A stretch of 32,640 nucleotides of DNA. Origin: a virus. Made by a program: the position numbers and the translations under genes. Below are positions 8,057 through 28,538 of this stretch, in pieces. Below the pieces are notes generated by a model. That model had not been told where the DNA came from. It saw only the letters and a list, made by a program, of their open reading frames with translations, and did no database searches. Each line of letters opens with the position of its first letter. Position 1 is the first letter of the stretch. The stretch covers positions 1-32,640 of the IMG/VR virus record IMGVR_UViG_3300005933_000039. One strand, 5' to 3'.

Positions 8057-8105
8057 TTTTCCCTTAGTCTAAACGTGTTTTTATTACTATATGTAGTTGA
8101 ATTAT

Positions 8106-8349
8106 AAGTACCCCTTAAGTACCCATGTACCCCTTAAGTACCCCATTTAACGATTATAACGCAATTCTTTAACAACAAGGTGTTAGTTATTTTTTTAATA
8201 AAGTCTAAAAAATGATGGTAGAGCCTATTTTTAGGCTAAATTACAGAATAATAGGAAAATACTGTTTGTTTGTATTTCTTAAGTCTAACGTATTGCAATG
8301 CAATACTTTGTAAGTTTTATAAATAATACAAGTACCCCAATAGTACCCC
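8106..8349. other. Probable attP: integrase arm-site clusters flanking a 17-bp palindrome
   Basis: AGTACCCC-type repeats occur in two clusters. The left has starts at 8107, 8118, 8126 and 8137, built from a 17-bp direct repeat gtaccccttaagtaccc at 8108-8124 and 8127-8143. The right has starts at 8331 and 8342. Neighbours within each pair are 11 bp apart, one helical turn. Between the clusters lie a perfect palindrome GTATTGCAATGCAATAC (8290-8306) and a hairpin AGCCTA/TAGGCT (8222-8237). No gene fits in 8057-8360. Arm-type sites on both sides of a palindromic core directly beside the integrase gene is the layout of a tyrosine-recombinase attachment site. Confidence 0.6.
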
Positions 8350-8360
8350 CGATGTTGTTT

Positions 8361-9515
8361 TTACCCAATTCTGCTGACAACATCTTGTAATCTTGTTGCC
8401 AACACTTTGGCGTAAACTTCTGTTTGAGCTATGGATTCATGACCCATAAATTCAGATAATTCTTTTAACGGCATACCCGCATTAACCCAATGCGTAGCGC
8501 CCCCATGTCTAAGCACATGAAGACCCATTCTACCGCTCATTATTGATAAATCTGTAAGAGCTTCTTTTAATTTGTCGTGAAGTCTAGCATACTTTAATGA
8601 ATTATTTAATACACCCGTATGTGAATATTTTAAAAGAAGCTCAAGGGCAGGCTTTGCACTTTTTGAAATGGGAACAACTCGTACTTTCATGCCTTTGCCA
8701 TAGAGTTTAATGGTATTTGATGTAAAATCAATATGAGACGCTTTAAGTCTTTTAAATTCAATATATCTCATACACTGAAAGAACATAAGCTCGTATATAG
8801 CGTTTAAAATAGACCCGTAGGTCTCTCTATTGTACGGCAAGCTGTCCACGTAATAAAAATAAGTAGGTTCGGCCAGTCTCTTGTTTATGTAGCTAAAAAC
8901 TTGTTGCAGTTGAGAGTATGTTAAATATTTGATTAAGCGTGTCTGATTTTCGCTATAACGCTTATTCATTTTATAATTTGGCTTAATCAACAACTGCAAT
9001 TTATGTGCTGTTCTGTGTTCTATATAAGCTAAAAAACGGCTAATAAGAGATTTATACGCCGCGCAATAGCTCCTACTTTTACCAGTAGTGTAGTCTTCTA
9101 AAAGAGTGGTCCATAAATTATCATCTGTCGCTCTAGCGCTAAACTCTGATAAATTATTGTCTCTAACAAAAGCTTTTAATTTGTTTGAGTAACCTAAATA
9201 GGTTAATTGCATTACTTGATCTCGCATTTCTGCTAAATAATCATTTAGCAAACTTATAATAGTTAAACCATCTTCATGCTTAACATACTCAGCGCCTTTA
9301 GAACCCGGATTGTCTGCAAAATCTCTCCAGGACTGTTTGGTGAGCTTCCAGGCTCCGCTATCGTAAGCTTTATTCATATCATGCTCTAGTTGTAATAGCG
9401 CACGTTTACTATATAAATTAACCTCAACGCTATGCTTTCTTTGGCGCCCCATGCGCTTAAACTTAATTTCGTAGCGATTACCGTTTTTTTTAAACAGAGC
9501 CATCCTTATCACCAT
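8361..9515 (-). CDS. int: Tyrosine recombinase (phage integrase)
   Basis: About 384 residues. The C-terminal catalytic domain has R in CMRYIEF, the KGMK beta-hairpin lysine, HxxR in HVLRHGGATH, H in FMGHES and nucleophile Y in AQTEVYAK. The N-terminal part has a basic AP2-like arm-binding segment (KKNGNRYEIKFKRMGRQRK) and a SAM-like core-binding domain (about 85-170). It should integrate the phage at the host attB using the adjacent attP (8106-8349). The ATG at 9513-9515 overlaps the repressor gene; another in-frame ATG at 9503 precedes MALFKKNG and is an equally plausible start. It is co-transcribed with the repressor, leftward. Confidence 0.92.
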   Translation of the reverse strand: MVIRMALFKKNGNRYEIKFKRMGRQRKHSVEVNLYSKRALLQLEHDMNKAYDSGAWKLTKQSWRDFADNPGSKGAEYVKHEDGLTIISLLNDYLAEMRDQVMQLTYLGYSNKLKAFVRDNNLSEFSARATDDNLWTTLLEDYTTGKSRSYCAAYKSLISRFLAYIEHRTAHKLQLLIKPNYKMNKRYSENQTRLIKYLTYSQLQQVFSYINKRLAEPTYFYYVDSLPYNRETYGSILNAIYELMFFQCMRYIEFKRLKASHIDFTSNTIKLYGKGMKVRVVPISKSAKPALELLLKYSHTGVLNNSLKYARLHDKLKEALTDLSIMSGRMGLHVLRHGGATHWVNAGMPLKELSEFMGHESIAQTEVYAKVLATRLQDVVSRIG

Positions 9516-9798
9516 CAATTTTTTTTAGCTTTGGTCTAGCTAGACCGTGAAGCAATTCGTTTAAGTTTATAAATCTATATTCAGGTCGATTCAAAACCAA
9601 TATTATTCTATTCCATCCTGTAGCAGTTATTTGATTACGAAGCTTATACATGGTTATCTGATTGCGATTTTCAAAACCCAAAACATCCGCAAGCTCTACA
9701 TCCCGATCTATACCAAATATTGACCTAAGTCGTCTAAGAAGTTCATGCACATCAACTTCAAAATCATCAAAAAACTCATTTTGAGCCTTGTTTTTCAT
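9490..9798 (-). CDS. CI-type phage repressor (HTH domain only)
   Basis: The 102-residue protein matches the N-terminal DNA-binding region of Bet/CI-type phage repressors. A helix-turn-helix spans about residues 33-57 (DVELADVLGFENRNQITMYK), followed by GWNRIILVLN. The C-terminal LexA-like autopeptidase domain of full CI repressors is absent, so RecA-triggered self-cleavage is not expected and induction must differ. It faces a divergent rightward operon across a 190-bp control region containing inverted repeats. Its 3' end overlaps the integrase start by about 26 bp, so repressor and integrase are made from one transcript. Confidence 0.7.
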   Translation of the reverse strand: MKNKAQNEFFDDFEVDVHELLRRLRSIFGIDRDVELADVLGFENRNQITMYKLRNQITATGWNRIILVLNRPEYRFINLNELLHGLARPKLKKIDGDKDGSV

Positions 9799-13508: not shown

Positions 13509-13947
13509 TGAAGCAACCAAAAAAGAGTTACAAACATTTGAAACAGGCTTTTTAATAGAAATAGCAATACATCTGGATAGTCAAGACTACGAAAAAGCCG
13601 CACAGGCTGTATTGTTTATGCGAACCAACTACAGCTTATTATTTCAGTTATCAACCAATTCTACAGATGCTGAAATTGAACAGATGAAACAAAACCTTCA
13701 ACAATCAAACGATGATCTAAAAGAAGAAAAACTATCTACTGTACCTAGCATTACCACCAAAATCAAAGCACTTACCTCCTATAAAGCCAACGATAAAACC
13801 GAACAAGATGTACTAAATTTTTGGCGTAATACAAACGCTGAATATGCTGAATACAACTTTACGGGGCTTAGCTCACATTTTTTAATGATGGTTTATATGG
13901 CAGGAATGGGCTTTGGTAAAGAACTTCAAAAACACCAAGCCAAATGA
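13471..13947 (+). CDS. Early protein of unknown function
   Basis: The 158-residue, mostly helical protein overlaps the previous gene by 38 bp and the next by 4 bp (ATGA). Its middle part (about 55-90) is polar and helical (DAEIEQMKQNLQQSNDDLKE), followed by a more hydrophobic end (LSSHFLMMVYMAGMGFGKEL). No family is recognised. In this position, just before the initiator gene, it may assist replication, but no motif supports a specific task. Confidence 0.6.
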   Translation: MIDKKKVLQTLHNEATKKELQTFETGFLIEIAIHLDSQDYEKAAQAVLFMRTNYSLLFQLSTNSTDAEIEQMKQNLQQSNDDLKEEKLSTVPSITTKIKALTSYKANDKTEQDVLNFWRNTNAEYAEYNFTGLSSHFLMMVYMAGMGFGKELQKHQAK

Positions 13948-15011
13948 AACGACCAACACACTACCAAATTGTAGAACGATCTATCTACTTAGCTGATGGA
14001 ATGGCTCCAAAATGTGCATTAAAAGCAATTTGTGCTATTATTGAGTTTTTGGGCGCCAACTGTGGAAAACTACCATACCAGCGAGCGCTTGCAAGATCAC
14101 AAAATATTCATCTTCGCACCTTACAAAGAGGGTTAGATTGGCTTGTAAATAATGGTCAATTAGCTATCAAAAATAGCCGTTATATAGTGCCTTGTATGAT
14201 CACTATTCCCGCCGAAATGATGACCGAAACCATCATTAAAAGTGACGCACAAACGACGCACAAACGACGCACTAGTGACGCACTATTGACGCACAAACGA
14301 CGCACTAGTGACGCACTAGTGACGCACTTGCCGAATGGCTATACCTTATATACTAAGAATATTAAAAACTATATAAAAAAAGCTACGTTTCACTTCGCTT
14401 TGGAAGGTTCAGCTGACGCCGAACTAACACACACTAATGCGGCCTTCGGCCTTGCTGAAAACAAGTTGAGTTTGGCCGTAGGAATGAGCCTAGACGAAGA
14501 ACCGATTTATGCAGAGAATCAGGTTCTAGCTTCTAGCCAAAATTCTGAGCCAAGCAAAGCGCCCATTAACAGCCTTAAGTTTTCTAGTGTTGAACGTAAC
14601 CCTAATCCACCGCTTAAAGCGTCTTCTAAACCCTCTCAAATTTCACGTTTAAGCGACGATAATTTGATAAACGATAAGATACAAGCCTTACCCCCTTCCG
14701 AGCCAGTCAGCAAAGAGCCAGCTAGCAAAAAGCAACAATACGTAGCGAAACCAAAGGACGTAGAAATGGTTACAGCTTACGTTTTAGATTTCTTGACCAA
14801 ACAAATCAAATCTAAAAATGTTAGGCATAATCGTTACAAAGCGTCAAATAAAAGTGATTTAAGCGCTATATCAGAAGATTTCTTCGATTACTACGAATCA
14901 TGCGGCTGGCGGGTTGGTTCAAAACCCATGAAAAATTGGCGATCTGCTATGAATCGCTGGTTAATAACTACCAAAGACACAAATCCAATTTCCTCCAAAA
15001 ATGCTAATTGA
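13944..15011 (+). CDS. Replication initiator (replisome organiser, lambda O-like) carrying the origin
   Basis: The 355-residue protein has a winged-helix N-terminal domain (about 40-80, RSQNIHLRTLQRGLDWLVNN). A repetitive basic segment (100-129; two 11-residue units SDALLTHKRRT) and a long disordered linker (about 150-260) follow. The C-terminal domain ends FFDYYESCGWRVG, then PMKNWRSAMNRWL, a pattern typical of phage replisome organisers that hand over DnaB. The gene contains eight iterons at 14244-14327, followed by an AT-rich stretch, so it binds and opens an origin inside its own gene as lambda O does. The DnaB gene follows with an 11-bp overlap. Confidence 0.82.
   Translation: MKRPTHYQIVERSIYLADGMAPKCALKAICAIIEFLGANCGKLPYQRALARSQNIHLRTLQRGLDWLVNNGQLAIKNSRYIVPCMITIPAEMMTETIIKSDAQTTHKRRTSDALLTHKRRTSDALVTHLPNGYTLYTKNIKNYIKKATFHFALEGSADAELTHTNAAFGLAENKLSLAVGMSLDEEPIYAENQVLASSQNSEPSKAPINSLKFSSVERNPNPPLKASSKPSQISRLSDDNLINDKIQALPPSEPVSKEPASKKQQYVAKPKDVEMVTAYVLDFLTKQIKSKNVRHNRYKASNKSDLSAISEDFFDYYESCGWRVGSKPMKNWRSAMNRWLITTKDTNPISSKNAN
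14244..14385 (+). other. Replication origin: eight 11-bp iterons plus AT-rich unwinding element
   Basis: GACGCAC occurs at 14244, 14255, 14266, 14277, 14288, 14299, 14310 and 14321, every 11 bp without exception. The 4-bp spacers are AAAC, TAGT or TATT. Directly downstream, 14340-14385 is nearly pure A/T (TATACCTTATATACTAAG and onward), fitting a DNA unwinding element. The array lies inside the initiator gene, between its DNA-binding and C-terminal domains. Confidence 0.82.
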
Positions 15012-16365
15012 TTTAAAAATAGAAAAAGCTATTTGTGGAAGTTTATTAACGGCGCCTTCGCAATTTTCTGCAATCGTCAAGGACACGCTAACCACTGATC
15101 ATTTTGTGAATGATACTACAAAAATCATTTTTGAGGGAATTGATTACTGTTTTAATCAAAATAATTTACCCAATGTTTTTGACGTTGAAAATTATCTAAG
15201 CCAACGACACCCCAACAAGTTAAAAGAATTTGGTGGAGAGCGTTTTTTAATAAGTTTAGCGCAATATTCTACGCTAAACGAGCAGCAATTCAAATCATGG
15301 GTTGAGCGCTTAATTGAGCTGTATGGATTACGCAAAATTCATTCAACATGTAGCAGCGTAACTACGCAAATCCAAGACGAAGATACAAAGCTTGAGAATG
15401 TTTTGGTTCAGCTTGAAATGCTATCACAGCATGTACTAGAAAGTGGCGCTGTTGGTTCAGTTTCACTCACAGCGGAACAAATTACTCAGCGAGACCTCAC
15501 AAAAAAAGAGCCTGAACGATTGTTTCATAACAACACCGCTTTAGATAATATCTACCAAAATTGCGGGTCCAGAAGAGGACAATATGAAATAGTGATGGGC
15601 ATAACAGGACACGGTAAATCCCATTTTGCCATGCTCAGAGCAGCAGGTTATTTAGCAAATGGCTATAAAGTTCTTTGGATTCAACGCGAAGACACCGACA
15701 GCTCTAGCGTAAACAGAGCTAATTCTTATCTAGCAAACATAAGTCCAGACCCTAAGATGCTATTCAAAAATTTATATATTTCTGATAGGCTAAGTTATAT
15801 AGCTGATATTAAAAGAGAAGCTAGATTATTGTATTCAAAGGGTTGTCTTGATGTGCTAATTGTTGATTATGTACAGCGTGTCAAAGCAATAGGATTTAAA
15901 GGCAACGATAGACGTATGGTTGTAGATCACATATCTACTGAACTAGCTGATTTAGCCATAGAATTAAATATATTAGTTATAGCAGTTTCTCAACTATCTA
16001 GGCGAAAAAACGATAACGGTTGGCGCTTAAAACCCCGTATTGATGATATGAAAGAATCCTCGCAGTTAGAACAAGATGCCTACATGGTTACGTCTACCTT
16101 TTATCCAGGTAGGGTAGATGATTTAATTAAGCCCAATAATCTTGTGTTATGGTATGATGATAGTTTAAAGCCAAAAAACACCTTACAAATTGAAATACTT
16201 AAACACCGACATGGCCTGCCAAACGTGTACAAAAGTTTAGCTAATTTCAATCATCTAGGAATACTTCAATTTCAAGAAGCGCAAGCATCAAGTGCAAGGC
16301 ATTTAGACGAAACAAAAGAAAAACCATTCTATTTAGTAGGAGACGATGATGAACTACCATATTAG
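15001..16365 (+). CDS. dnaB: DnaB-like replicative DNA helicase
   Basis: The 454-residue protein has a DnaB N-terminal helical domain (IEKAICGSLLTAPSQFSAI) and a RecA-like C-terminal domain. Walker A is GITGHGKSH (200-208), QRED sits at 228-231, Walker B is LDVLIVDYVQR (283-293), and IAVSQLSR (327-334) and SSQLEQDA (353-360) follow. It unwinds DNA 5'-3' at the fork as a hexamer and should be loaded by the initiator encoded upstream. Length is normal for the family. The start overlaps the initiator stop by 11 bp and its end overlaps the next gene by 20 bp. No primase domain is visible, so the host primase is probably used. Confidence 0.92.
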   Translation: MLIDLKIEKAICGSLLTAPSQFSAIVKDTLTTDHFVNDTTKIIFEGIDYCFNQNNLPNVFDVENYLSQRHPNKLKEFGGERFLISLAQYSTLNEQQFKSWVERLIELYGLRKIHSTCSSVTTQIQDEDTKLENVLVQLEMLSQHVLESGAVGSVSLTAEQITQRDLTKKEPERLFHNNTALDNIYQNCGSRRGQYEIVMGITGHGKSHFAMLRAAGYLANGYKVLWIQREDTDSSSVNRANSYLANISPDPKMLFKNLYISDRLSYIADIKREARLLYSKGCLDVLIVDYVQRVKAIGFKGNDRRMVVDHISTELADLAIELNILVIAVSQLSRRKNDNGWRLKPRIDDMKESSQLEQDAYMVTSTFYPGRVDDLIKPNNLVLWYDDSLKPKNTLQIEILKHRHGLPNVYKSLANFNHLGILQFQEAQASSARHLDETKEKPFYLVGDDDELPY

Positions 16366-17054: not shown

Positions 17055-20000
17055 TTAATCTAAGCTTATTTCAACTTTACTTTGATTAACCCCGCCAAGA
17101 GCTACACGCTGTTTAGCTTGCTCGTTAGCTAGTCTTGAAATTTGCCTAACACGCTTATCAATCTGTTCATTAGTCATAGTAATTAAATTAGGCTTATCAA
17201 GTATTATATCTCTGCGTATCTGTCTTCCTGAGTAGTAAATAAAATTGTAATATTGGTTCTCATTCATTACTCGACTCTGCCCTATCAAATCAATGTAAGA
17301 CACGCTATTCGGATTAGGCGTAGGAATAAATAGGTTTCTCTTTGTTAGAAAGCTAAATACAGGATGCTCTTTTTGAGTGCTGTAAAACCTGCCTAGCAAA
17401 CCTTGAGCAGCGCTCCAATCATTGCGTATTGGCTCACCTAAGCGATTTATAACTGGATGCCTATCATTCACCGCAAAGGCTGATGGCGTAGATGCTGCTA
17501 TCAATTCCTGAACCGTATCTTTAGTGTAAATTTTTGGGTCAAATATCTGGTTAACACTTCTAAATAAACTAGGCGTTGCTAATCGAACAGGCGTTGCTAA
17601 TAGGTCTTTGACAATATTAACTTTTGAAGCGCCCTCTCTACTCACATTTTCTACCAACCTTGCAGCTCCACTAAGAAACGACATATTTAGCATAGTCTGA
17701 GGTATAAGTTTAAAAGCATAAAACAGTCTTGATTGCAAATCTTTATCATCAAGTTCTTTATAACGAACGGCATCTGAGTAATTACCTACAAGTGCTAAAA
17801 GTAAACCAAGTGGACTATCTTTATAGCTAAAATAAGTTTTCCCCATTTGGACAGTATATTCTTTCCAACCCGTTTCACCTAATTGTCTAGCTTTTTTATA
17901 ATCAATAGGCCCTCTACCATGTATTCTAAACGATGGCTCATTATCTTCTGGATCATCAGTAAAAGCTATAGCAGCTAACAAAGAGAAAGCAATGGTTCCT
18001 GCCATGTTTTTCATTAAGATAATCTTATGCGCATCATCTAATGAATCATTAACATTGCGACGCTCAACATCGTTTTTAGCGTTCATATAGCGCCATAAAC
18101 CAATAACAGGAACATAATTAGCTTGTTCGTTTAACACGTTTGCTACAATCGTAGTGAAAGGAATTGCTCCCAACCTAATTACCGTTGACGCAACTCTACT
18201 ATTGGTTTTTTTATCAATTAAATTAAACCCCTGATTTATTCCCAATGCAATAGAACCCATCACCCCCTCTGGTGTTTGATTATATGTTGATGTTAAACCA
18301 AATTTTACCGCATCTTCTTGCAAACTTTGATCTCTATTACGCTCTATCTGGTCATGCACAAAATGTTTGTAATCCCTAGTGCCAGGTTCTAAACCTGCAT
18401 TTGACGCTGCAATATTAGCCTGCTCTCGGAAAGGTTCACCTAAAAGCTCTGCAAAAAGCTTTTGCGCATCATCCCCTCGTAAACCTGATTTTTGAACGGT
18501 TTTAGTAGCGGTGTAGTAAAAACGCATTTCCTCAGCACCTTTAAAAAACAACATATCCGAGGCTGCCATTACCCTACGAGTATATTTAAAGAAAGAAAGG
18601 GCAAATTGCAGTTTACTATCGGAGGTAGCTAACATTTCTAAAGTATCGCCACCCATTTGATCAATCTTCTGTAAACGAGTACCCGTTACAACACCTGTTT
18701 TTAGCACCTTTTCCGCTTCTGGAATACCTTTAATAAACCCTTTAAGAAGGCCTATCATTGGCGTATAACCCGATTTATTAAAAGGATTCATAGCCCATAA
18801 TGAGAAACCATTCAATAAAACATTAGCAAACGTAGAGCCAAAATTTACCGCTTGCGTAGGAATACCACTAAGCATATTACTATAGGCAACACTTGTAGAA
18901 ATATCCCACCAGCTTATCCCTTTTTGTTGAGCTATAAAACTCATTAGCTCAACCATTTTTTGATCTTTTGCCGAACTATCTACCATTAAGTTAACTTCTT
19001 TAGCCATTTGATCAATTTTGGCTAATGCTTTAGGGTCTGGCGACATTTCTAAAAATCTAGCTAATGAATCTCGTAAATCTGCCTGAGAAAGTGCGCCCAA
19101 CCTAGATAAATCCATTAACTCATTAACAAATTTTGAAGCTCTTGTACCACGACTAGCTTTTTCGCCTTTGGTTTTTTTATCCATTTTTTTTAAAAAGGCT
19201 TCAATCTTCTTTTTTCTGGTATCTATAATTTCTTGCTTAAGTGTGGCGTCCACTCGCTCGGCCATTAACTCAGCTTCATTTGTATTCAAACCACCTTGCT
19301 CTACCAACTTTTTAAGTAGCGCCATACGGTTATTGGTATCTACCCCGTAATGATCGGTAATAAGCTCTTTCATTTTCATATCAAGATCAGTAAGCGCATC
19401 ACCCATAGCTTTACGGACCAGCTTAACGCTAACTTCTCTATTGTTAAACCCATCAACGAGCGCTAAAGCCTGCTGCTTAACATCCTGTGACAAACTTTGG
19501 TCTTGTTGAATAGTATCGTAAACAGTATCTAAAGCCTCTTGATAACGGTCTGGGTTGCGCACTACATCTAATATCATATCTATAGCAGGCCTATTACTTT
19601 TTTCATTTTTAGTAGTAGGTAACTTAGATCGTATTTCCTGCATTAAAGCATTGGTAAATTCTTGTAGCGGTATGCTAGATGGAGAAGACCCTGCAAGTTG
19701 TTGCATAACGGATTTAGCTATAGCAACACGATAACGCTGCCAAATCCCATCCCCATCTTTTTTATTGTCTCTGTTTGGCTTGGCGCCTGATTCACTTAAT
19801 TTCTTTTTTGCTTGGGCTAATTGTCCTTGCAACCCTGAAAGTTCAAAGTATATTTTATTTATAACATCGTCTAGCTGTCCTAATATTTGTTTCTTTTGGT
19901 CTATTTCAGCTTTAATCCCTTCAATACCGCTGCCTACAGGTCTGCCTTCAAGTTCTTTAATCTGATCGGTTAACGCCTCGATTTGCTTAGTCAAAAGCTC

Positions 20001-23000
20001 TCTTTGCGCCTGCTGGGTATGTAATTCCGTTTCTAGTTGATTATTCGCATCTAAAAGACCGCCTACGGTCTCACTACTGCCCCTGAGCGCTGATTGTATT
20101 TCTGCAATTTCATCCATAAGGGATTTAATCTGCTGCTCTTTAGCGTCTACAACATCTTTACTAACCTGCGTAATTTCGGCATTGGCTGTAGTTATATCAC
20201 CCTCAAGAAGTGGCATAACTCTATTCGCTTTCTTTTGCATGGCCTTCTTAAAAGTAATAACAAAAGCTCTAGGGTTCAGTTTACTAAGTATCTTTATAGC
20301 ATTTAAGGCCCTGCCGTACTCACCATAAATACGAGTTGTTTCGTCTACAAAATCCGCTAATTGATCATATAATTGCGATTGTTCTTGACCTTCTGCGGCA
20401 TCTATACGCTCTTGATAGGCTAAAACAATCTGTTGAGCAAGCGTAACCCGTACACTATCAGATATTTGCTGTTCTGGATTCTTAACTGTAGCTACGGCAT
20501 TTTCAAAACCGACCTTTGCCATAAATTCCCTAGCCGCAGCCAAAGTAAACTCATGCGGTTGACGACGGTAAAAATTACGCATTTCACGCTCGTATGCTTC
20601 ACGAGCTTTGGCATCTGGAAGCAAGGCTTCACTCATTTCCTTGTATGTTTGGTGTTCTCCCAACATACCAGCATCTTCACGCTCTTTAAACTCCTGCTCG
20701 CTACCTAAACGACCATTATTAGGCCTTACTCTATCTAATACCTCTGTGGCGTTATTAACATCTTCTTCCGTAATTATACCACCTGATAGAAGCTCGTCAA
20801 TAGATCGACCTGAATCATTATTAGCTATATCATCCATATTATCAATAGATACAAAGTCGTTAGCTTCCTGCATCTGTCTAACATGTGATTCAATCGTAGC
20901 ATCATCATCAAATAAATTACTATCGTTTCGCGCCCTAATCTGTTGGTAAATAAGCTTTAAATATGGTTGCACCTCAAAGCCTGTTTGCTCAAGCATTTTT
21001 TGACTAAAAGCGGAAAAAGTTCTAGCACCCGCTTCAATGTGAAAAGCGCCCATTTTAACCAATCTAAATAACTGAACGGGGTCAATCGGCAAACCGCCAG
21101 ATATTTTGTTTAAGTCTCGGTTAAAGTCGGCTTTTGTTCGCTCGTAGTCGGAACGGTCGACGATGCTATTGTTTGCTCCGTAGGCATCGGCTTGCGGTTC
21201 GTCAACTTGGCTATTGCCTTCTTCGCCACTAGTTTCTGCTCCCTGCTGCTTTGCGGATCGTCCAGTATTAATTGCGCCCTGTAAGCTAGATTCAACGCTT
21301 TTGTAGGTCTGTTCATTGGTTTTCTTAATTTGATTGGTTTGTTCTTTGCTAAAGCCCGCTTTTTCTAAAGCTGCCTCAGCCTGTTCAGCTTTAAAAAATA
21401 AGTCTTGCTCTTTGTCTTTTTCAAAAACACCTTTCTCTTTTTCTATGAGAATTGCTTCTTTTTGCGCTAACCTAATTTGCTCATCTATACCTGCTTTAAC
21501 CTTTTGAATGTAATCATTGGTTATTTCCACCTCACCAAATCCAACTGAACCATTTATTTGACTACGTTGTGCGTTATTGAGTTTTTTTAATCTTTCCTCA
21601 CGCTCAGTCCTTAAGTCGTCTACAACTTTATTAGCCTTAAACAATCTGTTATCATATTGACGCTCCATTTCACTACGTCTTCTTTCTAACGCAAGCGGTT
21701 TATCTTGCTCAAAACCAAAATTAACCTTAGTACCAATAAACTCACTAAAAGCGCCTAGACTTCTAAATTTGTCATTATTTTCAGGTTTCATTAAAAACTT
21801 AAATAACTGATTTTCATGAGAGGTTGTAAGCTGTGAGTACATTTGTCTAACTCGACCAATCCTTTGGCCAATAGACATCATTAAATCCTTGTTATCGCCT
21901 TCTGCGGTTTCTTGGAAATTACTTATTTCTTTTAATGTATCACCAGTCGTATCTAAATAAGAGAAATCAATCGCCCTAGAAGCAGCGCCAGTACCCTCAA
22001 CTATTTTAGCTTTATCCTTAATAGCTTTTTTAGATTCTCCTTTTTCTCTCATTTCTCGATAAACTTTTGCCCTCTCTGATGGGGATTCCAAATCCCTACC
22101 AGTGTTTGATCTAACTGTAGCAAAATTCCTCGCCTCATCTTGAGTTCCGGTTAAAAAACGAGCAGGAGAAGACTCTTTCCCTAATCTTTTCATTGCTTCA
22201 AAACGATGATGGCCAGCTAAAACATAAATTTCACCATCAATATCTTTCCATAAAACAAGCGGGTCTAAATCCACATTGCTAAAATCATCAACAATCCTTT
22301 GAACCTTTTCTTCCTTTAATTTTTCCCTATTTTGGAAAAGCTTTTCATTTGTTCTCATTCTTTCAACAGGTACTAAAACCGTTGAACGATCTACGGGAAA
22401 CATTTCGCCATCAATTTCTACTAAATTTTTGGAATCTTCATTTTCTTCTTTATCCAACTCTGTAGTCAACTCTTGATCTAGTAAAGTTTCTTGCTCAAGT
22501 TGTATCTCAGGACTTAATTCAGCTTCTGTCTGTACCTCATTATCTATTGGTATTGGTAGCATTGGTATAGACTCTGTGAATATCTCAGAAGAAGCAATAT
22601 CAACCACCGCTTCATCATCTGTTAGCTCTGATATAGGTTCGTTTTCTTGTTCAGTTTGCGTTAAATCATTCAAGGATTCACTCTCGCCTTGAACATGATC
22701 TTCTAACGCCTGTAAACCACTAATAACATCTTGATCCGTTATTTCAGATTGACCGTTACTAATTTTTGCACGGCTTCTTTTTAATGAAGACACAATTATA
22801 CCACCTGCGAAACCGATCACTCCACCCGCTCCGCCCGCTTCCATAACACCGTCTAAAAGTTGCCTGGATTCATCATATTTTTTTTGTGCTACAAGATTCG
22901 TTAAAGATGATTGAAGCGTTTCCTGCATTAATTCCTCTAAACCACCTTGAAAACCATCGGCTAATATCTTAGCTGATTTATTCCCACTTAAGCGGTTAAT

Positions 23001-23909
23001 ACTATTAGCTATACCAGCAACACCCATTTTAGAAGCCACTTTTTTCATAGCACCGCTAGTCATAGCACCACCTCTAGCAAGTACTCTATTGGTTGGAATA
23101 GCTTCTGTAGAACCAATCATCCAATTATACACTTGCGCCTCAAAAGCATCTTGCTGTGTTGCACCCGATTTTATAGCGTTAGCGTATTCTTCGCCACCCA
23201 TTGATGAAGAACCTAAAGCTAAAGCTCCTACTCCACCACCAGCCGCCCCTGCTAAAACAAAAGCGCCAAAAGAACCAACGCCTTGAGGTACTACACTCAG
23301 CCAAAAACTTTCTTGCAATTCAGGGTTTGTAGGTAAAGCGTTTTCAAGACCCTTACCTATTCTATCCCCTAATTGAAAAAAATACCTCTCTTCGGGTTTC
23401 TGCTTTGAAACATCTACATCCTCGCCACCCGTAGCCTTGCTTAAAAACCGCTGTAAGCCAGCCGATACTAAAGCCGCTCCGTCAAGACCGTTGACTACAC
23501 TACCCGCAATGCCAGGCATATTCTTTAAGACCGTTTTAGCTAGACCTGGTTTATCATCACCAGCCAAAATACGTTCACCCTTATTGGCCAAGCCCGCTTG
23601 ATTATAAGCAAGGCTTTGAGTAAAGGTTCTTGCAAACGATTGTATAGTACTGTTTGCAACATTTTTAAAACCGCCTATTTCATTAGCATCCTGTTGCTGT
23701 TCTTGTTCAGGCTCTGAAAAATACACACTTTGAAAACTAGAAATATCCTCACCCATACCCGTATAGCCCGATTCTTTTAATCGGTTGTATAACAAGGTTT
23801 GGTTTTTTTCGGTTGAGAACGTGCTTTTAAAGCTCTCGTAATCGCCTAATCCAGTTACCTCATTTATTTGCAACTGTTTATGCAATAATTCTAGTTTGTC
23901 GGTAGACAT
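17055..23909 (-). CDS. Giant polyvalent virion protein with ParB-like domain (2284 aa)
   Basis: At 2284 residues this is the largest gene in the window. A small N-terminal motif (GLGDYESFKSTF, about 20-65) is followed by glycine/alanine-rich hydrophobic stretches (about 205-235 and 355-375). A ParB/Srx-like nuclease domain lies at about 503-640 (VPVERMRTNEKLF, then VLAGHHRFEAMKRLG). An LPD-type helical region is near 945-1000 (FRLVKMGAFHIEAGARTFSAF), then long coiled coils. The C-terminal third (1660-2284) has SVAYSNMLSGIPTQAVNF and DSPLGLLLALVG segments like LPD38-type domains. This is the 'polyvalent protein' architecture (Iyer and colleagues), thought to be packaged and ejected with the DNA to counter defences. 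It is the last gene of the late operon. Confidence 0.82.
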   Translation of the reverse strand: MSTDKLELLHKQLQINEVTGLGDYESFKSTFSTEKNQTLLYNRLKESGYTGMGEDISSFQSVYFSEPEQEQQQDANEIGGFKNVANSTIQSFARTFTQSLAYNQAGLANKGERILAGDDKPGLAKTVLKNMPGIAGSVVNGLDGAALVSAGLQRFLSKATGGEDVDVSKQKPEERYFFQLGDRIGKGLENALPTNPELQESFWLSVVPQGVGSFGAFVLAGAAGGGVGALALGSSSMGGEEYANAIKSGATQQDAFEAQVYNWMIGSTEAIPTNRVLARGGAMTSGAMKKVASKMGVAGIANSINRLSGNKSAKILADGFQGGLEELMQETLQSSLTNLVAQKKYDESRQLLDGVMEAGGAGGVIGFAGGIIVSSLKRSRAKISNGQSEITDQDVISGLQALEDHVQGESESLNDLTQTEQENEPISELTDDEAVVDIASSEIFTESIPMLPIPIDNEVQTEAELSPEIQLEQETLLDQELTTELDKEENEDSKNLVEIDGEMFPVDRSTVLVPVERMRTNEKLFQNREKLKEEKVQRIVDDFSNVDLDPLVLWKDIDGEIYVLAGHHRFEAMKRLGKESSPARFLTGTQDEARNFATVRSNTGRDLESPSERAKVYREMREKGESKKAIKDKAKIVEGTGAASRAIDFSYLDTTGDTLKEISNFQETAEGDNKDLMMSIGQRIGRVRQMYSQLTTSHENQLFKFLMKPENNDKFRSLGAFSEFIGTKVNFGFEQDKPLALERRRSEMERQYDNRLFKANKVVDDLRTEREERLKKLNNAQRSQINGSVGFGEVEITNDYIQKVKAGIDEQIRLAQKEAILIEKEKGVFEKDKEQDLFFKAEQAEAALEKAGFSKEQTNQIKKTNEQTYKSVESSLQGAINTGRSAKQQGAETSGEEGNSQVDEPQADAYGANNSIVDRSDYERTKADFNRDLNKISGGLPIDPVQLFRLVKMGAFHIEAGARTFSAFSQKMLEQTGFEVQPYLKLIYQQIRARNDSNLFDDDATIESHVRQMQEANDFVSIDNMDDIANNDSGRSIDELLSGGIITEEDVNNATEVLDRVRPNNGRLGSEQEFKEREDAGMLGEHQTYKEMSEALLPDAKAREAYEREMRNFYRRQPHEFTLAAAREFMAKVGFENAVATVKNPEQQISDSVRVTLAQQIVLAYQERIDAAEGQEQSQLYDQLADFVDETTRIYGEYGRALNAIKILSKLNPRAFVITFKKAMQKKANRVMPLLEGDITTANAEITQVSKDVVDAKEQQIKSLMDEIAEIQSALRGSSETVGGLLDANNQLETELHTQQAQRELLTKQIEALTDQIKELEGRPVGSGIEGIKAEIDQKKQILGQLDDVINKIYFELSGLQGQLAQAKKKLSESGAKPNRDNKKDGDGIWQRYRVAIAKSVMQQLAGSSPSSIPLQEFTNALMQEIRSKLPTTKNEKSNRPAIDMILDVVRNPDRYQEALDTVYDTIQQDQSLSQDVKQQALALVDGFNNREVSVKLVRKAMGDALTDLDMKMKELITDHYGVDTNNRMALLKKLVEQGGLNTNEAELMAERVDATLKQEIIDTRKKKIEAFLKKMDKKTKGEKASRGTRASKFVNELMDLSRLGALSQADLRDSLARFLEMSPDPKALAKIDQMAKEVNLMVDSSAKDQKMVELMSFIAQQKGISWWDISTSVAYSNMLSGIPTQAVNFGSTFANVLLNGFSLWAMNPFNKSGYTPMIGLLKGFIKGIPEAEKVLKTGVVTGTRLQKIDQMGGDTLEMLATSDSKLQFALSFFKYTRRVMAASDMLFFKGAEEMRFYYTATKTVQKSGLRGDDAQKLFAELLGEPFREQANIAASNAGLEPGTRDYKHFVHDQIERNRDQSLQEDAVKFGLTSTYNQTPEGVMGSIALGINQGFNLIDKKTNSRVASTVIRLGAIPFTTIVANVLNEQANYVPVIGLWRYMNAKNDVERRNVNDSLDDAHKIILMKNMAGTIAFSLLAAIAFTDDPEDNEPSFRIHGRGPIDYKKARQLGETGWKEYTVQMGKTYFSYKDSPLGLLLALVGNYSDAVRYKELDDKDLQSRLFYAFKLIPQTMLNMSFLSGAARLVENVSREGASKVNIVKDLLATPVRLATPSLFRSVNQIFDPKIYTKDTVQELIAASTPSAFAVNDRHPVINRLGEPIRNDWSAAQGLLGRFYSTQKEHPVFSFLTKRNLFIPTPNPNSVSYIDLIGQSRVMNENQYYNFIYYSGRQIRRDIILDKPNLITMTNEQIDKRVRQISRLANEQAKQRVALGGVNQSKVEISLD

Positions 23910-26494: not shown

Positions 26495-27690
26495 TAGCTT
26501 ATTGTAATTGTTCCTGAACCTGATGTGAATGTTAAATTGCCCCCGGAGCCGCTATAACCTAGACCAGCCGATACACTAATACTTGAATGACCCGAAACAC
26601 TTAATACGACTACACCTGACCCACCACTTGTTGTTGGGTTATTGTTACCGTCAACCCAAACCCAATTGTAAGAAACCGCTTCTGCGCCATTACCTGTATT
26701 ACTAGCACCGCTAGCTGTAGATATTCCTGCGAGGCCTGGATCTAAAACAGAAGAACCTCCTGCCCCATAGCCTGATGAACCAGCACCACCAGCACCTGGG
26801 CTGCCTATGCTTCCAAATCCGCCAGCACCGCCAGCACCACCACCACCACCACCACCATAATAGTTAGATTGATTACCGTTATTGTTAGTATGTGCGTTAC
26901 CACCGCTATTACCTTGACCCCCCATACCTGATCCAAAACCATTGTTATAAGCGCCTGAGCCAGCTCCACCGCCTGAACCACCGCCCGCACCTGCTGCCTG
27001 AAAAGAACCACCACCACCACCGCCAGTAGAGCTTATATTGTGAAATGAAGAAGATGAGCCATTATATCCACCACGAAAACCCCAAGTACCCACATAACTT
27101 CCACCACCAGCTCCAACGGTTATATTATAGGTTCCAGCAGCTAGATTCATAGAGCCAGTCAGTAAACCACCGCCACCACCGCCACCACCACCTCCAAAGG
27201 TAGATGTCATTCCTCCACCTCCACCGCCAGCTACTATGGTATAACCTACTGCTATGGGTGGGGCTAAATCTTGTATGGTTAAGTTCTGGTATCGTGTTGC
27301 TGAATAAGAAAAAGAATCTGAAAAACTACATCCAACTTGTATGTTTTGGTTAGATGGTACGCTTGATGTCTGTATGTACGTCAAACTACCTGATGGAGTT
27401 AGACTAAAATACCCACCATTTGAGGATTCAAACCAAGAGTAATGTTTAGCCTGAGAGGTTATTCGAGCTGCTTTACTACCGCCCGAAAGACTAGCTGCAA
27501 CATAGCATTGAAATACAGTACTCTCATCAGGTGTTGCATCATTAGTATAAAGACTCATTGAGTTTATATAAAAATCGTTATATAGCCTAGTGTAAGACGC
27601 ACTTCCACCAGCTCCTGTACCTAGGCGTGTGTATGATGTAGTATTAGGCTTGCCTGTTGCATAACCTAAATTACCAAGTGAATACGACAT
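26494..27690 (-). CDS. Glycine-rich receptor-binding fibre/adhesin
   Basis: The 398-residue protein has three parts. The N-terminal region (about 1-145) is beta-rich, with LYTNDATPDESTVFQCYVAA. The middle (about 150-320) is a long glycine-rich domain with runs of up to ten Gly (GGGGGGMTSTFGGG, GGAGGFGSIGSPGAGGAG). The C-terminal beta segment contains GVVVLSVSGHSSISV. Gly-rich fibre tips such as the S16 gp38 adhesin pack as polyglycine-II helices and bind host receptors. It has the same overlap style (TAATG-type) as neighbouring fibre genes. The nucleotide composition is GGN-repeat rich, which can allow slippage. Confidence 0.75.
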   Translation of the reverse strand: MSYSLGNLGYATGKPNTTSYTRLGTGAGGSASYTRLYNDFYINSMSLYTNDATPDESTVFQCYVAASLSGGSKAARITSQAKHYSWFESSNGGYFSLTPSGSLTYIQTSSVPSNQNIQVGCSFSDSFSYSATRYQNLTIQDLAPPIAVGYTIVAGGGGGGMTSTFGGGGGGGGGGLLTGSMNLAAGTYNITVGAGGGSYVGTWGFRGGYNGSSSSFHNISSTGGGGGGSFQAAGAGGGSGGGAGSGAYNNGFGSGMGGQGNSGGNAHTNNNGNQSNYYGGGGGGGAGGAGGFGSIGSPGAGGAGSSGYGAGGSSVLDPGLAGISTASGASNTGNGAEAVSYNWVWVDGNNNPTTSGGSGVVVLSVSGHSSISVSAGLGYSGSGGNLTFTSGSGTITIS

Positions 27691-28538
27691 TATTTTAATT
27701 TATTAATTTGGGTTTTCATTACTTCAAATTCTTTTCTCAATTCTTTAATTCCCTCGATTAGTAACACGGAAATACCACCATAATTAACAGATAAAATGTC
27801 ATTTTCGTCAACGTGTACAACCTCGGGTAATACCAAATGAATTTCTTGTGCTATAACACCTGCCCTCCTATATTTGCTTTCGTCCGCTTTTAGGTTGTAT
27901 GTGTACCCCGAAATTCGTTCTAACTTATCTAATGAGTTCTCAACAACTTCAAAATTCTCTTTTAATCGACTGTCTGAGTATGCAGCTATGTCTGCTGCTG
28001 CCGTTATAGATACTCCACCACTATTCCCATTAACATTCAATGTGCCTGCAAGAGTCATTGATTGAAAATTAACACTATTATTTGTGTTTAAACTTTGATT
28101 CGCTGAGACACCTGCTGCACCTTGTGCACCAGTTGCACCTTGTGAGCCAGTTGCACCTTGTGAGCCAGTTGCACCTTGTGAGCCAGTTGCACCAGTTGCA
28201 CCAGTTGCACCTACAAGACCCCTTGGACCTGTTGCACCAGTTGCACCTTGAATCCCTTGAATCCCTTGTTCACCTGTAACTGTATTGTTAGCAATCAACG
28301 TGTCAACCTCGGCCTCTGTATAATAACGCCCATCGTGGTCATGGGATGCAGCTGCATAACTTCCACTCGCTTGTTTACCTGAAATAGTCGTGTCCATTGC
28401 AGCAATTTTCGCAGATAAATCAAACTTTTTATCTTTATCAGCTACATTCGCTTCGTTTTCGTCGCGAATGTACGTAAAAGAGTCTGTTGAGGGTAGCGTC
28501 GTGAGCGTTGGTAGTTCGCTTAATTGTTCATCAGCCAT
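27690..28538 (-). CDS. Collagen-like tail fibre with S74 intramolecular chaperone
   Basis: The 282-residue protein has an N-terminal attachment region (1-85), a collagen-like Gly-X-Y segment (89-143) and a short beta linker. It ends in a peptidase S74 chaperone domain (185-282) with SDSRLKENF (188-196) and [16 protein letters not shown] (226-241), plus a C-terminal coiled coil ([19 protein letters not shown]). The S74 domain trimerises the fibre and cleaves itself off just before S188. The collagen part is encoded by an 18-bp tandem repeat. It starts 7 bp after the upstream gene stop. Confidence 0.88.
28130..28240 (-). repeat. Tandem repeat encoding collagen-like Gly-X-Y units
   Basis: AGTTGCACCTTGTGAGCC-type 18-bp units (plus-strand reading) repeat at 28127-28200, followed by shorter CAGTTGCAC units to about 28215. 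They encode GATGSQ-type triplets in the fibre gene. Such repeats can expand or contract by slippage, changing fibre length. Confidence 0.7.

Follow-up and report, generated by a model that had tools for sequence, protein, structure and literature searches.

Why does a single phage gene carry the same seven bases eight times, at a spacing that never departs from 11 bp? The question is raised by IMG/VR virus record IMGVR_UViG_3300005933_000039, of which positions 1 to 32,640 were analysed here (the window). An open reading frame (ORF) of 355 residues at 13944-15011 on the plus strand encodes a presumptive replication initiator, its C-terminal domain being common to many phage replication proteins, and at 14244-14327 the same strand holds eight copies of GACGCAC in exact 11-bp steps. 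A preliminary description, made from the letters alone, had taken this array for a lambda O-like origin. Our comparisons with related genes argue that the array and the AT-rich tract following it are likely to be the replication origin of the phage, placed inside the initiator gene, and that its iterons are probably bound by the product of that gene.

An in-gene array of GACGCAC iterons

The array is real, and chance is excluded as its source. GACGCAC starts at 14244, 14255, 14266, 14277, 14288, 14299, 14310 and 14321 (seven steps, each of 11 bp; extended consensus YGACGCACWA), and a single further copy lies elsewhere in the window, at 27596. Dinucleotide-preserving shuffles contained 1.2 copies per window on average, and none of 100 reached nine; eight copies in a row at exact 11-bp steps is the most that any 7-mer attains in the window, and 200 Markov-1 simulations never went beyond two. 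The perfect in-gene phasing noticed at the outset is thereby confirmed, as neither shuffles nor simulations ever reach it.

Does the encoded peptide dictate this DNA? The array is in frame within the ORF, and translation runs through its 11-bp unit in each of the three frames (SDA, TTH and RRT), so that no single peptide is being repeated. Its 33-bp super-period encodes two 11-residue units, HKRRTSDALLT and HKRRTSDALVT, just as the preliminary description had it. Nevertheless, the coded peptide does not force the GACGCAC core. If the peptide is kept constant and codons are drawn according to the usage of the phage, the probability of finding all eight cores is log10 P = -12.2, a value that assumes independent copies and is therefore to be read with care, because duplication makes this assumption untrue; among 200,000 synonymous recodings of the array, five cores were the most that were kept. 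An argument independent of that assumption comes from the pattern of variation: the seven core positions are invariant across all eight copies, and only the four spacer positions vary. The array is thus constrained as DNA beyond its peptide, which fits the earlier idea of a dual pressure on one stretch as protein and as binding site.

The 7-bp core is non-palindromic, and all copies point the same way. A turn of B-DNA measures 10.5 bp, and the 11-bp step is slightly longer, such that each site drifts by ~17 degrees relative to the previous one and the array as a whole by roughly 120 degrees. That successive sites lie on the same helix face is hence an approximation. Twelve base pairs past the end of the array begins a candidate unwinding element, an AT-rich tract of 45 bp at 14340-14384 on the plus strand (guanine-cytosine (GC) content 0.16), which is the lowest-GC 45-mer of the gene and within the lowest 0.2% of the window. 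The next gene after the initiator, on the plus strand at 15001-16365, encodes a DnaB-like replicative helicase (Pfam DnaB_C 3.6e-24 and DnaB 1.4e-10; PHROG 19 at 1.3e-50) and starts about 620 bp beyond the tract. The order of iterons, AT-rich DNA and dnaB therefore stands as first described.

What kind of protein might read these sites? Replisome-organiser domains had been proposed for the initiator, and no profile library finds them: the protein matched no Pfam or NCBIfam family, no lambda O family appeared among its Pfam, PHROG and NCBIfam matches, Pfam gave no match to RepA_N, and the HTH_36 profile (PF13730) had no match on the window record at an E value of 10. A putative winged-helix DNA-binding domain (residues about 20-88; 14001-14207, plus strand) was recognized by eye only, from a pattern like GKLPYQRALARSQNIHLRTLQRGLDWLVNNGQLAI. 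The C-terminal domain (residues about 290-345; 14811-14978, plus strand) carries the motif W-x-V-G-x3-M-K-x-W-x2-A-x3-W and can be aligned to the replication proteins encoded by the Vibrio phages 1.155.O and Seahorse and by Psychrobacter phage Y8A; the C-terminal 60 residues match unnamed PHROGs (PHROG 15768 at 5.8e-10).

One-turn arrays in other initiator genes

A search of IMG/VR with the C-terminal domain returned at least 521 confirmed matches, of which 80 were kept; 83 ORFs fell into 55 clusters at 60%. The proteins differ at their N-terminus, where DUF1376, Lin1244_N or HTH_36 is found. We counted exact repeats of at least six bases and compared them with synonymous-codon shuffles of the same genes. 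At a distance of 11 bp there were 75 repeats against 18.8 expected (z 13.7), and such a repeat was present in 35 of the 55 clusters (shuffles: 14.8 expected, at most 24). An excess was seen as well at 22 bp (z 9.1) and at 10 bp (z 8.0), neither of which is a multiple of three. Other ORFs from the loci of this set and of the A2 set introduced below served as a control (137 ORFs) and gave a z of 0.7 at 11 bp; the phase therefore belongs to these initiator genes and not to phage DNA or codon use in general.

The cores of these arrays are mutually unrelated (TCCGGAG, AACCGAA, CATATG, GTATAC, TGTCAACC, GCAGCAGACGG and TACCAC), and the arrays are positioned between the N- and C-terminal domains. A clear array is present in 19 ORFs, and the 50 bp that follow are AT-rich by the standard of the ORF concerned, with a median percentile of 0.10 compared to 0.47 before the array (Wilcoxon p = 0.004). 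The window shares the features of this class, namely sites phased at 10-12 bp between the domains, AT-rich DNA after them and the common C-terminal domain. Among named phages, Vibrio phage 1.155.O holds TCCGGAG four times at 11 bp, and Seahorse holds AACCGAA at 22 and 11 bp. Arrays of this type resemble that of the window in the C-terminal domain of the protein, the one-turn phase, the position in the linker and, usually, the AT-rich DNA that follows, whereas their cores and N-terminal domains are different and most of them are followed by a strand rich in TAG and AAG.

This last feature deserves a description of its own. In the 60 bp after 18 arrays, including that of the window, the coding strand contains 116 TAG and AAG trinucleotides against 77 +- 4.5 expected from peptide and codon usage, the highest of 500 recodings having 90; the opposite strand has no excess (14 against 14.6). 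The loci rich in these trinucleotides are L052, L059, L073, L078, L083, L087, L092, L108, L118 and L017, and the window itself lacks the enrichment after its array (2 observed, 1.9 expected). The tract may represent a strand-specific opening or loading element. Possible counterparts are the DnaA-trio, 5'-[T/A]A[G/A], and, in B. subtilis, the DnaD element (PMC10201434). The trio is bound by DnaA and has the opposite strand polarity, and we did not adopt it as the identity of the TAG/AAG tract. In-gene arrays of yet other kinds occur in Acinetobacter phages with DnaB-type genes, as AACCA at 8 bp or as 18-bp palindromic GTACCGAAATTGGTAC units (L020:2544-2580, L021:2490-2621).

Is the core of the window itself used by other initiators? 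Scanning IMG/VR for three phased copies of GACGCAC yielded 20 stretches, about half of them in initiator-like genes with another N-terminal domain. An alignment built from these genes, A2, was used to fetch 80 loci (L128-L207) that form 43 clusters. The presence of GACGCAC in some members is a selection effect, the family having been reached via the core; no such selection affects the remaining cores or the phase, the 80 loci having been fetched by protein sequence. In the 43 clusters the z score at 11 bp is 26, and 39 clusters have a repeat (13.6 expected, at most 19); as in the first set, repeats at 22 bp are in excess too. The arrays start near residue 110, directly behind the DNA-binding domain. 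A2 proteins bear a predicted winged-helix domain of the form 'MxGFIxIxR...CNYDxYQ' and include that of Sulfitobacter phage pCB2047-A as well as proteins annotated as 'DnaD-like helicase loader'. Arrays are found in four cultured phages of this superfamily: Sulfitobacter phage pCB2047-A, Staphylococcus phages SA7 (core AACATCA) and phi879 (core AAAAGACA), and Vibrio phage F89.

Many A2 members resemble the window in that GACGCA(C) itself, spaced at 11-12 bp, immediately follows the DNA-binding domain. In contrast, homology between the N-terminal domains is undetectable, and the window protein has another C-terminal domain. The shared core may be due to convergence or chance, or the domains may descend from a very ancient common ancestor.

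Recognition-helix residues and wing codons in the A2 family

Does the protein change along with its core? For each of 76 alignment columns we tested if clusters with the same residue also tend to have similar cores, using 34 A2 clusters that share less than 70% identity and have three or more copies. Position 72 ranked first (z 9.8) and position 76 third (z 5.7), the median column having a z of 0.7. Both positions fall at the beginning of the recognition helix, with a distance of four residues between them. After removal of overall similarity they retain z scores of 9.0 and 5.4, and none of 2,000 permutations was as high; with fewer clusters the pair still gives z 5.7 (18 clusters) and z 3.3 (12 clusters). 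CGACGCA or AACGCA accompanies D or E at position 72 combined with R at position 76, K at 72 with D at 76 is associated with CGGGACA or CGGGGCA, and rarer residue pairs go with cores of their own. Phage pCB2047-A (core GCGGGACA, helix SKSRVDRFL) fits this rule, with the caveat that it is close to L199.

An AlphaFold2 model of the A2 domain, computed from 43 sequences, is a predicted winged helix (predicted local distance difference test score (pLDDT) 90) in which positions 72 and 76 lie in the helix after the turn. In the PDB it matches regulators of the winged-helix type and has a weak similarity to two initiator structures, 4pql and 4pt7 (none of the matches below E 0.001).

The wing of this domain adds a second line of evidence. 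In 27 of 30 clusters its codons hold a five-base piece of the phage's own core, compared with 2.1 expected when other parts of the domain are taken, and of these 27 copies 20 lie within one base of an 11-bp multiple from the first copy of the array. In the numbering of L128, this extra iteron copy is in the codons of positions 97-100. Residues 97 and 98 also ranked high in the covariation test, and we set them aside as a protein-DNA covariation: because the wing codons contain an iteron copy, these residues follow the DNA. The wing of these relatives is the clearest case of dual pressure as protein and as DNA; in the window, no extra iteron copy of the wing type was found upstream of the array. 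Taken together, the covariation and the wing copy are good evidence that such initiators read their own in-gene iterons.

The array as a probable replication origin

How might the array of the window promote replication? We envision a scenario whereby the N-terminal DNA-binding domain of the initiator would occupy the eight GACGCAC sites, one protein per helical turn and all in a single orientation, whereby this row of bound proteins would strain and open the AT-rich DNA at 14340-14384, and whereby the C-terminal domain would then recruit the DnaB-type helicase that the phage encodes next door. For the window, binding, opening, helicase loading and the start of replication at this place are inferred from its relatives and from lambda. 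A broader proposition, towards which we lean with some reserve, is that at least two unrelated initiator families carry their origin within the gene as short non-palindromic sites, read by one protein per turn and extending from the wing codons through the linker. Two recognition-helix residues would determine the site, which would change with the protein, and the window would be a GACGCAC member with a different DNA-binding domain.

The comparison with lambda bears out one half of the original 'lambda O-like' label. In lambda, iterons in the middle of the gene and the AT-rich tract after them are both required for opening (PMC7466680, PMC6022878), and the O genes of lambda and Stx phages share with the window both the mid-gene position of the iterons and the AT-rich DNA on their 3' side (PMC6022878, PMC7466680); in these genes, too, the number of iterons alters the protein by in-frame residues. 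However, lambda iterons are 18-bp hyphenated palindromes, each bound by two O proteins (PMC6022878), whereas the window has eight non-palindromic 7-bp cores at 11 bp and no O homology, and its next gene encodes a DnaB-like helicase rather than a loader P that works with host DnaB. Layout and principle are thus those of lambda O, and the type of iteron is not. The RepA_N initiators of plasmids and satellites are alike in that an N-terminal domain binds the iterons and a variable C-terminal domain recruits the machinery (PMC7145576). Their iterons are mostly semi-palindromic and, in PLE, located within a noncoding region (PMC7145576), and the window differs from them in having no RepA_N match.

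Several observations weigh against reading the window array as an origin bound by its own initiator. No DNA-binding profile matches the N-terminal domain significantly; we do not claim its homology to the A2 family, since the hhalign score was below that of the best shuffled controls, and an AlphaFold2 model of the whole protein from its single sequence (pLDDT 33) was worthless and left unused. GC skew, which had been suggested as an origin check, does not turn at the array and gives no independent signal there; the change that it does show, near 17 kb, follows the orientation of the genes. In most relatives the helicase gene is not the immediate neighbour of the initiator. Finally, the only close relative of the window initiator and helicase is a near-identical contig in another metagenome record, which is the same in all but two bases across the stretches fetched; none came from the plasmids searched.

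Could the repeat have arisen without any role as DNA? Slippage might have multiplied an 11-bp unit within a tolerant linker, as in a minisatellite. The 33-bp super-period indeed shows that local duplication took part, and perfect 11-bp GACGCAC arrays, mostly with identical spacers, exist in bacterial chromosomes outside initiator genes. Yet those arrays mostly repeat the whole unit identically, whereas the copies in the window differ only in their spacers and never in the core, and slippage would not predict that unrelated cores recur at the same place of initiator genes and not in their neighbours, which renders this explanation quite improbable. Alternatively, the HKRRTSDALLT units may matter as a peptide, with the repeat in the DNA as a mere consequence. 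A 33-bp period does preserve the frame and yields two near-identical units, but the 11-bp unit gives three different peptides, the cores are kept at synonymous positions to the extent calculated above, and the prevailing distances in relatives, 11 and 22 bp, are not divisible by three; we regard this possibility as extremely unlikely.

Other alternatives accept that the sites are bound and differ in the purpose or in the reader. The initiator might bind them mainly for autoregulation or to limit replication, with the origin elsewhere. Control roles of this kind are often held by plasmid iterons, and nothing in the skew profile marks the array; however, AT-rich DNA beside the array, in the window as in relatives, fits DNA opening, and the array lies about 300 bp inside the gene with no promoter-like site nearby above chance in our scan. 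We accordingly give control sites a low probability. It is also conceivable that the sites are read by some other protein of the phage or by a factor of the host, given that the DNA-binding domain of the window protein is putative only and that the same core is found in initiators with a different N-terminal domain. Such a reader is hard to reconcile with A2 sites that change along with the initiator's own recognition helix, and with cores that vary widely among phages, unlike the site of a conserved host protein, and we consider it very improbable. As an observation aside, perfect GACGCAC minisatellites with constant spacers are present in Cupriavidus, Sphingomonas and Brachymonas chromosomes (L024, L025, L033, L037 and L038).

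An origin inside the gene of its own initiator, as favoured here, bears on a general problem. Where an origin and its initiator gene are separated, their joint change is difficult to follow. In the arrays described here the cores diverge quickly while the phase persists, and A2 cores follow two helix residues, which provides a ready series for initiator-origin coevolution. A corollary is that in-gene one-turn arrays offer a simple rule for locating phage origins from sequence alone. We found nothing relevant on GACGCAC or on one-turn 11-bp phage iterons in open-access papers, subscription journals being mostly outside the search, and the one-turn, non-palindromic in-gene form appears to be common and unremarked.

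Searches of the window for Rfam families and tRNAs gave no matches. Elsewhere in it, AAGTACCCC repeats with a period of about 11 bp occupy 8105-8144 and 8328-8351, between a small lipoprotein-like ORF and an integrase gene (8361-9518, minus strand); they are possibly integrase sites at the attachment region. A single minus-strand ORF at 17055-23909 encodes 2,284 residues and takes up about a fifth of the window. At 28116-28250, repeats of 18 and 36 bp encode collagen-like repeats in a minus-strand ORF that adjoins tail-like genes.
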